IMG/VR virus record: IMGVR_UViG_3300041405_000397
Span: 1-53,374 of that record
Length of the DNA: 53,374 bases
Source: a virus
Strand: one strand, 5' to 3'
Part shown: piece after piece, positions 16,017 to 44,728 of the stretch
How positions within the stretch are numbered: the stretch's first letter is position 1
Layout: every line of letters starts with the position of its first letter
Program-made: the position numbers and the translations under genes
Notes under the pieces: model-generated
Seen by the model: the letters and a program-made list of their open reading frames with translations, nothing else
The model's database searches: none
Told to the model about the DNA's origin: nothing

Positions 16017-16089
16017 GTTGGTTTTCTCGCAAAGGTTAACCGGCACATTAGAAGCCCTGACTGTTAGCGCAGTTAGGGCTTCGCTGTTT

Positions 16090-41962: not shown

Positions 41963-42002
41963 TGCTCAGTTGCTGGGTGAGGCGCTTACATAAGGATTGA
42001 TT

Positions 42003-42575
42003 TTGAAGGCTCTTACTAACCCGTTATGGAACCCAATGGGGGTCATCTCTCCTATAGATGCCTCTAACCCAACTAGTGCGGCTAGGTCTCCATACGAAAT
42101 GGATGTTGTGCAATTCGTAAGCATGTTCGCCTTAACGTCTGCCAGAATAAATATTTTAAAAGGATTCTTAAATTTTAGAATGGCATTAAGTGCAGCAGGT
42201 TTAATTGATGGTTTTCAATGGATTGACGGAAGTTTCACAGAAAATGTTGAGATGATTGAAAAAAGGCCTCCTAATGATGTTGATGTGGTAACTTTTTTTA
42301 GTTTCCAATCAGGTGATAACGATGAGCTGGTTTATCTAAGAGATCCTGATCTCTTTGACCAGCCGACTGTCAAAAGTAAATATCTGGTTGATTCCTATTT
42401 CGAAGGATTGCATGCTCCAGGCAATCATCTTGTCTCAAGAACTGTATATTGGTACAGTATGTGGGCGCATAAACGCGATCTTTCTTGGAAAGGTTTTGTT
42501 CAGGTTCCACTATCCCCAGCGCTTGATTTAACAGCGATGTCTATACTTGAGTCTACCGTCATTGAGGAGGCATAA
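42003..42575 (+). CDS. DUF6932-like protein with nucleotidyltransferase motif, in the cI operon
   Basis: 190 residues from TTG 42003, chosen because AAGGA lies six bases before it (an upstream TTG at 41997 touches the ribosome site). The centre reads WIDGSFTEN (Gly76-Ser77) and, 14 residues on, NDVDVVTFF (Asp92-x-Asp94). This is the GS...DxD signature of minimal nucleotidyltransferases. The third acidic residue is not certain. The gene lies 40 bases after cI and its stop abuts the next ATG, before a strong terminator. It could modify a nucleic acid or protein as part of phage exclusion or a toxin pair; this is inference. Confidence 0.75.
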   Translation: MKALTNPLWNPMGVISPIDASNPTSAARSPYEMDVVQFVSMFALTSARINILKGFLNFRMALSAAGLIDGFQWIDGSFTENVEMIEKRPPNDVDVVTFFSFQSGDNDELVYLRDPDLFDQPTVKSKYLVDSYFEGLHAPGNHLVSRTVYWYSMWAHKRDLSWKGFVQVPLSPALDLTAMSILESTVIEEA

Positions 42576-43490
42576 ATGAATCGTGATGATTATGTTTTCG
42601 CTCTCAGTGAACGCGAACAAGTTAAAAAGCTTTTAGGCGATATGCCTTCTGGATTTTCACTGGCTAAAATTAGCCTTGAGTCGCGTTTGAAAAAAATAGA
42701 GAAAATTTTATCAAATGCTGAACCTCGCCAATATGAAGCAACTAAAGCCACATTAACGTTTAGAGGCCCTACTGTTATGGGGACTCATGGCATCTCCGCT
42801 TCATTTGGAACGAAAGCGTTGACCTTTTTTGATGAAGCTATCGCCTATGTTGCCAGCGCGTTCAATGGCTCATTGCCTTCTGCAGGTAAAGTACCAAATA
42901 GTGAGCAAAACCACTTGATGATTACCTCATCTGCAAGAGGGTCATTTGGTTTTATCCTGGAAGAATTTCGACCAGATGCCCCACTGGGCTTTGATGAACC
43001 TACATTAGTGTCGAAAGCCCTTGATAAAACGCAGCTTATTTTACAAGCAAGTCTGGATGGCAATGATGAGCAGCTCGCCGAGGCTTTAGAGGACTTAGAT
43101 GAGAGAGCGCTGGAAAAAATCAGATCATTTATTAGCTTCCTTGTTGATAATAAAACTGTTTTCACATTAAAAAGTAACGGATTTGATTTGGTTTTTAGCG
43201 AGCCTAAGCAACTCGAAGGTGCTCTCAAACAGTTAAGCCCAGATAACATCAAAGAAGAGCTATTAGAATTAGATGTATTCTTCCTGGGCGTGCTACCCAA
43301 CAAAAGGCAGTGTGAATTCATAATCGAGGGCGATACAGACGTGAAATCAGCAAAAATCGACAAAGGTTTTGCTGACCCTAACGTTTTGAATAAGCACCTG
43401 TCCACACCAGCACGAGCGAAGTTTGCTAGAAAAATAATAGGGAACGGGAAACCTCGATTTACTCTACTAACTGAACCCTCCTGGAAGTAA
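42576..43490 (+). CDS. Partner protein of the nucleotidyltransferase-like gene
   Basis: 304 residues. The ATG follows the previous stop directly and has GGAGG upstream. The start is helical (LSEREQVKKLLGDMPSGFSL, LESRLKKIEKIL). The middle has a beta pattern (ATLTFRGPTVMGTHGISASF), then helices rich in acidic residues (ALEDLDERALEKIRSFISFL). The C-terminal third is again beta-like (FLGVLPNKRQCEFIIEGDTD). I do not recognise a catalytic motif. Tight coupling says it works with the 42003 gene, as antidote, sensor or complex partner. Confidence 0.75.
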   Translation: MNRDDYVFALSEREQVKKLLGDMPSGFSLAKISLESRLKKIEKILSNAEPRQYEATKATLTFRGPTVMGTHGISASFGTKALTFFDEAIAYVASAFNGSLPSAGKVPNSEQNHLMITSSARGSFGFILEEFRPDAPLGFDEPTLVSKALDKTQLILQASLDGNDEQLAEALEDLDERALEKIRSFISFLVDNKTVFTLKSNGFDLVFSEPKQLEGALKQLSPDNIKEELLELDVFFLGVLPNKRQCEFIIEGDTDVKSAKIDKGFADPNVLNKHLSTPARAKFARKIIGNGKPRFTLLTEPSWK

Positions 43491-43709: not shown

Positions 43710-43746
43710 TGCTCTTTAACAATCAGGTTGAGACTGATTCGGTCTC
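43710..43746 (+). promoter_or_regulatory. nutL site (boxA and boxB)
   Basis: boxA TGCTCTTTAACA (43710-43721) is identical to the bacterial rRNA boxA core. After eight bases comes the hairpin GAGACT-GATTC-GGTCTC (43730-43746), five Watson-Crick pairs, one T-G pair and a five-base loop. N and NusA/B/E/G should bind here. Confidence 0.85.
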
Positions 43747-43768
43747 ACCAAAGTGCAGTTGGCTTTGG

Positions 43769-43835
43769 GATGTGGTAGCGCAGTGGCAGACGCGGGCATT
43801 CAGCCGTACCTCTGGTTCGATTCCAGAACACATCA
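43769..43835 (+). ncRNA. tRNA-like element in the N leader
   Basis: A near-complete cloverleaf. Acceptor: GATGTG pairs with CACATC (six pairs, then a G-A mismatch), followed by ACC. T8-A9, D arm with GCG/CGC and GTGG in the loop. The T arm TCTGG-TTCGATT-CCAGA is perfect. Only 17 bases lie between the D and T arms (normal is about 23) and no five-pair anticodon stem with a seven-base loop can be made; a small GGC-ATTCA-GCC hairpin takes its place. It cannot decode normally. It lies between nutL and N, where lambda has an RNase III-sensitive hairpin. Confidence 0.6.
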
Positions 43836-43859
43836 CCTAAGCCAATTAACGGAGGCATC

Positions 43860-44108
43860 ATGAACAATAAGCAACGTAAGAAGCTGCAACGCGCCATTGA
43901 GCATCGTGCAGCACAACGTAATGAACTGAGGTTTGAACGCAAGATTACGGCAGCACTGTCTGGCTGCAGCTTAAACGTAGCCAGAGCAACCAGCGCTCCC
44001 TCTCTGCGGGATAAGCATGAGAGCGGCGCACTGTGTTTACCAGATGTTGCCCTGTATCAGGCAGGGTTCCGTAACGTTCGCAAAGACGCGACGCATATTG
44101 TTAAGTGA
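43860..44108 (+). CDS. N: Antitermination protein N (P22-type)
   Basis: 82 residues, ATG preceded by GGAGG. The Arg/Lys-rich start (NNKQRKKLQRAIEHRAAQRN) is the boxB RNA-binding part. The end LCLPDVALYQAGFRNVRKDA matches the end of P22 N (LLPGVALYAAGHRKSKQ). First gene from PL, after nutL and the tRNA-like element. It lets polymerase pass the terminators at 44147 and 45090. Confidence 0.9.
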   Translation: MNNKQRKKLQRAIEHRAAQRNELRFERKITAALSGCSLNVARATSAPSLRDKHESGALCLPDVALYQAGFRNVRKDATHIVK

Positions 44109-44178: not shown

Positions 44179-44469
44179 TTATGGAAGGTCAATTTTTTCG
44201 AGGCCACGCCATGCCCTGCCAGCAACCTCCGTAACTATAACTTTAGGGGAGGGCAAAATTTCCCGGATTACTTTAAAAACTTTATCAAGAAGCTCTTGCC
44301 GGCATAAATAGCCAGAGCAGGTGAATTCGCCAGGCGGCAGCCGGTAATAAATACCGTTTTCATCTGAGAGACTATGTTTGAACCCGCATTTTCTCATTTT
44401 GTCACATAGCTTCTGGTAAGCATCCTGGGTGCTGTCGTGAAGTTCAATTGAGATATTAAAATTACCCAT
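44179..44469 (-). CDS. GhoS-like (DUF2622) small protein
   Basis: 96 residues. MGNFNISIELHDSTQDAYQK, MRKCGFKHSLSDENGIYYRL and PPGEFTCSGYL follow the pattern of DUF2622/GhoS-type proteins, known from prophages. E. coli GhoS is an RNase antitoxin; whether this relative cuts RNA is unknown, and no GhoT-like toxin lies beside it. It runs against the PL operon, so it may be expressed in the lysogen. Confidence 0.6.
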   Translation of the reverse strand: MGNFNISIELHDSTQDAYQKLCDKMRKCGFKHSLSDENGIYYRLPPGEFTCSGYLCRQELLDKVFKVIREILPSPKVIVTEVAGRAWRGLEKIDLP

Positions 44470-44658
44470 ATGACCACCTTGAGTGCTTGCTGCAATTTAA
44501 GTTTACTTAACTATGGCACCACGGCTTATTTATTGCACGAAAAAAGCTCATTAGACGAACTACACTGACTATTGGCAGCTTTTTAAGCCTCAAAAAAGGG
44601 GAGCAGCTGAAATTGCAAAAGCGGTATATCACAGAAGGAGCTTGCAGTTTACTGGGGG

Positions 44659-44728
44659 TACGGGCGGCAGGATTTGAACCCGCATCAGCAGCCAGATGGC
44701 TGTAGTAATTCCGTTATACCACGCCCGT
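44659..44728 (-). tRNA. tRNA-like gene, possibly Gln(CUG), with an abnormal anticodon arm
   Basis: Read on the minus strand: acceptor ACGGGCG / CGCCCGT is perfect, TG at 8-9, D arm GTAT / TTAC with GG in the loop, and T arm GCGGG-TTCAAAT-CCTGC. The centre allows two readings: a seven-base loop with anticodon CTG on a four-pair stem and only two variable bases, or a better five-pair stem CAGCC/GGCTG with a four-base loop. No CCA is encoded (ACCC follows). It may be a functional odd tRNA, a decayed one or a mimic. Confidence 0.6.

Follow-up and report, generated by a model that had tools for sequence, protein, structure and literature searches.

A tRNA-like RNA without a normal anticodon arm caps a conserved stem between nutL and N, at a site where phages carry exchangeable RNA inserts

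The window analysed here is the whole 53,374-nucleotide stretch of IMG/VR virus record IMGVR_UViG_3300041405_000397, whose relatives suggest an Enterobacterales host, such as Erwinia or Pantoea. It encodes an N antitermination protein, preceded by a nutL-like site and, between nutL and the gene, by a tRNA-like element that caps a long-range stem (43757-43768 with 43836-43847). The features of this N leader are as follows.

43711..43721, plus strand: boxA-like part of nutL (GCTCTTTAACA), seen in the sequence and also present in this position in related N leaders
43730..43746, plus strand: boxB-like hairpin GAGAC..GTCTC, seen in the sequence and predicted in the leader fold
43748..43768, plus strand: alternative upstream hairpin CCAAAG-TGCAGTTGG-CTTTGG, which competes for the 5' arm of the long stem and is found in 66 of 67 distinct leaders
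43757..43768, plus strand: 5' arm of the long-range N-leader stem (AGTTGGCTTTGG), with covariation over 39 distinct arm pairs and a fold z-score of -3.4
43769..43835, plus strand: tRNA-like apical insert with acceptor, U8-A9, D arm, a stunted 3-bp anticodon remnant, T arm and A73 (Rfam tRNA 27.8 bits; covariation with 13 relatives)
43794..43810, plus strand: 17-nt region that replaces the anticodon arm and variable loop (GGC-ATTCA-GCC plus GTACC; sequence GGGCATTCAGCCGTACC), with length and letters that vary between classes of tRNA-like inserts
43811..43827, plus strand: T arm TCTGG-TTCGATT-CCAGA, with two-sided T-stem changes across relatives
43836..43847, plus strand: 3' arm of the long-range stem (CCTAAGCCAATT), which pairs with the 5' arm according to covariation and fold
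43851..43855, plus strand: Shine-Dalgarno sequence GGAGG of N, outside the stem and unpaired in the predicted fold
43860..44108, plus strand: N antitermination protein of 82 amino acids (Pfam N_peptide, E-value 4e-8; PHROG 271, anti-termination protein N-like)

The tRNA-like element reads GATGTGG-TA-GCG-CAGTGGCAGA-CGC-GGGCATTCAGCCGTACC-TCTGG-TTCGATT-CCAGA-ACACATC-A. Its acceptor stem has six pairs, formed by GATGTG (43769-43774) and CACATC (43829-43834), and the seventh position is a mismatch (G43775 x A43828) that is confined to the window copy. U8-A9 are at 43776-43777, the D stem pairs GCG (43778-43780) with CGC (43791-43793) around a loop that contains GG, and the discriminator A43835 is followed by CCT. 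The element thus has the tRNA core, with a D arm, a T arm with a TTCRANN loop, U8 and R15-Y48, and the U8-A14 and G15-C48 partners and the elbow are intact. A canonical anticodon arm (5 bp, 7-nt loop, U33 and a triplet) is absent, as just 17 nt separate the D and T arms in the window, and these can pair only as GGC-ATTCA-GCC, a 3-bp stem with a 5-nt loop. An earlier note made from the letters alone had described a tRNA-like element without a usable anticodon between nutL and N, with six acceptor pairs, T8-A9, a D arm, a perfect T arm and 17 bases between the D and T arms. Every one of these features is present, and the placement is borne out by the boxA- and boxB-like sequences upstream and the N_peptide protein downstream.

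The Rfam tRNA model (RF00005) aligned over the full length of the element with 27.8 bits (E-value of 4e-4 in a 211-nt search), below its gathering score of 29 bits, and ARAGORN makes no tRNA call at 43769-43835. This element is not a decoding tRNA. Taken alone, its 67 nt fold modestly better than shuffled sequences (z = -1.4). Together with the flanking stem (43757-43848), the z-score is -3.4 and none of 200 shuffles was as stable. The minus strand folds about equally well, but we rejected a minus-strand element, since it is the plus strand that carries the tRNA-core positions and on which the element precedes N.

The stem below the element is conserved with compensatory changes in the N leaders of many phages, including P22 and HK620. 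Across 39 distinct arm pairs, 47 cells were changed on both sides, compared with 14.9 in shuffles, and 87% of the cells were paired against 19-56% when the arms were slid, a paired percentage that is favoured by the choice of arms for pairing. As the Shine-Dalgarno sequence lies 3 nt beyond the stem, a cut at the stem foot would leave a translatable N message. The upstream hairpin also shows matched changes (CCGAGG/CTTCGG, CCGGAG/CTCTGG and CCAAAC/GTTTGG) in loci that were fetched by N protein alone. Because the CTTTGG strand belongs to both, this hairpin and the long stem are mutually exclusive, so an RNA switch next to nutL is conceivable. Neely and Friedman (2000, cited in PMC3526286) reportedly described alternative NUT RNA structures of phage H-19B. 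That phage group, with a related N, would likewise have a nut region with competing RNA pairings, whereas the competition here is between a local hairpin and a long stem.

For a survey of the position at the stem tip, we scanned viral contigs with the 5' flank only (CCAAAGTNNAGTTGGCTTTGG and CCARAGMGNAGTTGGCTTTGG) and fetched further loci by N protein. A complementary 3' arm recurs directly before the Shine-Dalgarno sequence of N, and the insert between the arms varies from phage to phage. In total, 163 inserts were distinct, with lengths from 17 to about 260 nt. The smallest were plain hairpins of 17 and 29 nt, and the first 125 distinct inserts fell into 35 clusters at 70% identity. This stem-plus-insert architecture is present in P22, HK620, HK629, Edwardsiella GF-2, Yersinia 30.14, a Vibrio phage and Hafnia Pocitis76. 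One insert type can occur on differing stems and one stem can carry differing inserts; the window-type insert, for example, sits on AGTTGGCTTTGG/CCTAAGCCAATT in the window and on AAAGTGCTTCGG/CCCAAGCACTTA in locus L346. The insert of the phi80 N leader is 90% identical to that of L025. With the exception of tRNA, no Rfam family reached its gathering score among the inserts searched. An origin of the element as an attachment site was rejected because the position between nut and N is fixed in many phages. In L080, L172 and L187, the 5' part (TGGGCGGTAGCTCAG) of a 168-nt N-leader insert resembles the 5' half of a tRNA and the 3' part does not.

The earlier note was right about the location of the tRNA-like RNA, but it missed the larger context, in which this RNA is one of dozens of interchangeable inserts that include hairpins of 17-29 nt. 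More than 30 sequence clusters in one slot, a mere 17- or 29-nt simple hairpin in some phages and the free combination of insert types with outer stems might also mean that a long RNase III-type stem does the regulation, and that its tip is a tolerated insertion site for tightly folded inserts without a specific function. We return to this below, as evidence from within the inserts bears on it.

In six of 152 distinct unselected inserts, a canonical T arm adjoins the closing helix (L001, which is the insert of the window, L002, L058, L059, L062 and L346); the T-arm matches of L017 and L256 are internal and were left out of this count. Under a strict test for an acceptor with an abutting T arm, five of the 152 qualified and none did in 100 rounds of dinucleotide shuffles. 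A T-arm-based pattern search added L091, L151, L110, L101, L095, L104, L133, L137, L119, L148 and L162. Inserts of the tRNA-like kind fill the slot in several phage groups. The Rfam tRNA cut-off was passed by L002 (47.2 bits), L119 (42.3), L062 (39.4), L059 (37.0), L101 (35.2) and L110 (34.8). Acceptor stems have 6, 7, 8, 9 or more pairs. The anticodon position is occupied by 5-6 nt loops on 3-bp stems (window, L058, L091, L151 and L346), by a loop of about 15 nt (L059, L062 and L110) or by 60-100 nt of other structure (L101, L095, L104, L133 and L137). The insert of Hafnia phage Pocitis76 is annotated as tRNA-Gly, yet it has a G at position 33 of the loop. The patterns of the window type and the L059 type had no match in 246 and 395 sampled bacterial genomes (from one family and order), and we therefore consider these insert types rare.

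We determined covariation in the acceptor and T stems from fixed-length segments, as MAFFT alignment of the full tRNA-like leaders misplaced the D arms. Across 14 members, 17 cells were changed on both sides, against 4.6 in shuffles, and 98.7% were paired; the window and L058, for instance, differ by a compensatory A-U to G-C change in the acceptor. Related N leaders thus contain the compensatory stem changes that the earlier note had proposed to look for. It is very improbable that the element is a functionless, decaying tRNA gene trapped in the leader. Its score just under the tRNA cut-off, the lost anticodon arm and the single acceptor mismatch of the window copy would be consistent with decay, but relatives show covariation in the acceptor and T stems, the U8-A14 and G15-C48 partners have been retained along with the elbow, and every tRNA-like insert, even a distant one, is without a normal anticodon arm while the rest is kept.

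The commonest insert type is unlike tRNA in sequence but resembles it in layout, with a D-like and a T-like hairpin that pair through their loops. A 9-bp helix closes the insert. The 5' hairpin has the loop GGCTGA and is separated by a variable middle from the 3' hairpin, which has the loop AGATCAGCA and stacks directly on the closing helix. GCUGA of the first loop is complementary to UCAGC of the second; the two loops often lie about 100 nt apart and change together, as in GACTGA with TCAGT (L241) and GGTCGA with TCGAC (L060, L171 and L328). In the module alignment, every loop-loop cell pairs and three of the five pairs show two-sided changes. Among 53 distinct loop pairs, 13 have at least five complementary bases compared with a mean of 0.6 in shuffled loops, and because most of these 13 come from one lineage, the independent evidence for loop-loop pairing amounts to a few covarying types. 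The closing helix has two-sided changes at eight of nine pairs in 21 selected copies, in which the helix was itself selected for pairing.

This module is not limited to N leaders. Its 5' hairpin (GAATGCGCAGGCTGATGCGC) has matches in at least 120 viral contigs. Of 146 copies examined, 29 precede N and 104 have a matching 3' hairpin and closing helix. A late-leader copy matches 169 phage records; in HK620, it is located downstream of qut and upstream of the terminator tQ, ahead of the holin gene S. Further copies precede genes that, judged from their translations only, are lysozyme-, RecT- or terminase small-subunit-like. Since the module is also found before genes other than N, control of N cannot be its whole purpose. 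In the loci searched, it matched no Rfam family at gathering score, and we found no paper that describes it. The module looks widespread among phages and absent from Rfam, but it could already be one of the candidates in a large RNA catalogue such as PMC8040213.

Several module copies have other structured RNAs beside them. The HK620 late leader between qut and tQ (L495, 970-1650) contains apparent tandem stem-closed modules, namely GTAAGAGCA..TGCTCTTTCC followed by the GGCTGA/TCAGC module, and in L201 the first stem-closed late-leader module holds a tRNA T arm. In L454 (12177-12327, minus strand), a module copy is immediately preceded by two true tRNAs (74.5 and 72.9 bits), and a T arm is located at most 60 nt upstream in 11 of the 146 copies.

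The inserts thus contain helices with strong covariation, loops that stay paired across about 100 nt while their sequence changes, and a module that recurs at unrelated sites. As the covarying helices and loop-loop pairing suggest selection on a particular fold, we consider it unlikely, if still a serious alternative, that the tip is just a tolerated insertion site on a regulatory stem. A broader proposal, for which we see about even chances, is that phages carry an undescribed modular class of tRNA-shaped RNAs, in which an 'acceptor' helix closes a domain whose 5' and 3' hairpins flank a variable middle, with the 3' hairpin stacked on that helix and its loop paired with the 5' loop in the manner of the tRNA elbow. 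Such RNAs would be interchangeable with dead-anticodon tRNA-like RNAs in the leaders of antiterminated operons (the N leader and the late leader after qut), would also occur at other intergenic sites, and would control how the neighbouring mRNA is processed or how stable it is.

In lambda, translation of N is repressed by N and Nus factors bound at nutL, and this repression is modulated by RNase III, according to PMC5725501 (citing Wilson 1997, 2002), which describes N autorepression via nutL. This agrees with the lambda precedent for control of N translation at this place that the earlier note had invoked, and in both phages a structured RNA lies between nutL and the ribosome-binding site of N. 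The lambda N-leader hairpin is short and simple, whereas here a covarying long-range stem bears a hypervariable structured insert, which is tRNA-like in this phage. The element is the apical module of a conserved hairpin that parts nutL from the N ribosome-binding site. By analogy with the RNase III hairpin of lambda, we tentatively hypothesise, with slightly less than even confidence, that the closed hairpin domain is cut or shed from the early transcript. An N mRNA with a short 5' end and its Shine-Dalgarno sequence would then be freed from the nut-N-Nus-RNA polymerase complex, which would otherwise repress N translation. Where the insert is tRNA-like, the cut at 43768/43769 could be made by RNase P or another tRNA-processing enzyme, and the stem could be cut by RNase III whichever insert it bears. 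All versions would need a compact RNA domain here that closes on itself, and any of the exchangeable folds would supply it.

An acceptor and T stack of window-class size is a known RNase P recognition size, and the phi80 M3 RNA and phage C4 RNAs are RNase P substrates (PMC11143913, PMC10731613). These are likewise non-tRNA phage RNAs and are cut by RNase P, whereas the window element is a candidate substrate only. The earlier note had proposed that RNase P or CCA-related enzymes might act on the acceptor and T arm, so that a cut could separate nutL from the N message or guard N translation in a growth-dependent way, which are putative roles. Its stack has 7+5 positions, with one mismatch, followed by A-C-C. 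C74-C75 are paired with G's upstream in the long stem, which should hinder RNase P, and cleavage of the window element by this enzyme is possible. In other tRNA-like inserts the stack is not always 12 bp, because the acceptors range from six to nine or more pairs. Both this variation and the pairing of CC with the upstream GG count against a strict RNase P reading, and we therefore favour a hairpin that serves in processing or insulation and whose tip may take on various compact folds, one of them tRNA-like. The phi80 M3 RNA was also considered as the same element and was rejected because it is annotated as an oop homolog; it lies beside an O-like gene, outside the N leader. The Rfam C4 antisense RNA had no gathering-score match in the window or in 16 leader loci. 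The tRNA-like domain of tmRNA is comparable in that its acceptor and T arms enclose a large domain other than an anticodon arm, and the L095 insert has a weak Rfam tmRNA match (E-value of 1e-4, 21 bits against a cut-off of 47).

P22 infection gives a 96-nt small RNA, P22B, with its 3' end 16 nt before the N gene, 24, according to PMC13397905. P22B maps to the insert of the P22 N leader, which tops the same kind of hairpin and is of a different sequence type that is not tRNA. At least one leader of this type therefore yields a discrete RNA. The 5' end of P22B is inside the insert and not at its base, so that it fits neither a simple RNase P cut nor a simple RNase III cut. The passages on P22B in PMC13397905 name no enzyme that makes it and do not place it among a wider set of such hairpins. 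Detection of P22B from this position would also fit a role of the insert in trans, in which it would be set free as a stable small RNA and serve, for instance, as a decoy for host factors that bind or cut tRNAs or as a base-pairing regulator. An anticodon-less tRNA fold could bind tRNA enzymes, the middles of the modules are hypervariable, and a second anticodon-defective tRNA-like RNA is encoded nearby on the other strand. However, P22B was identified by read mapping alone and no target or partner was found, and we regard a role in trans as distinctly unlikely.

Control in the N leader is a textbook circuit that is known mainly from lambda. The present results describe the N-leader hairpin as a conserved stem whose RNA tip is exchangeable and in some cases mimics tRNA, in P22-like, HK620-like and many Erwinia, Pantoea, Hafnia, Edwardsiella and Yersinia phages. 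In the openly available literature, we found no report of a tRNA-like RNA in an N leader. The purpose of anticodon-less tRNA-like RNAs in message leaders becomes testable, and the natural insert variants can be used for dissecting how RNase III and RNase P control antitermination.

Elsewhere in the window, we identified the following features.

16017-16085, plus strand: match to the sar antisense RNA (RF00262, 43.7 bits)
41997-43490, plus strand: two-gene module between cI and pL, encoding a DUF6932 protein and a PHROG 18731 protein
44179-44469, minus strand: ORF matching GhoS, an antitoxin-type endoribonuclease (Pfam 21.2 bits, just over the cut-off), adjoining the second tRNA-like RNA
44657-44728, minus strand: second tRNA-like RNA, located downstream of N and antisense to the pL transcript (Rfam tRNA 44.3 bits)

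The sar antisense RNA is known from P22-type phages. In the second tRNA-like RNA, the acceptor, D and T arms are intact and the anticodon loop has just six bases; it is also found 780-940 nt past N in L028, L316 and L318.
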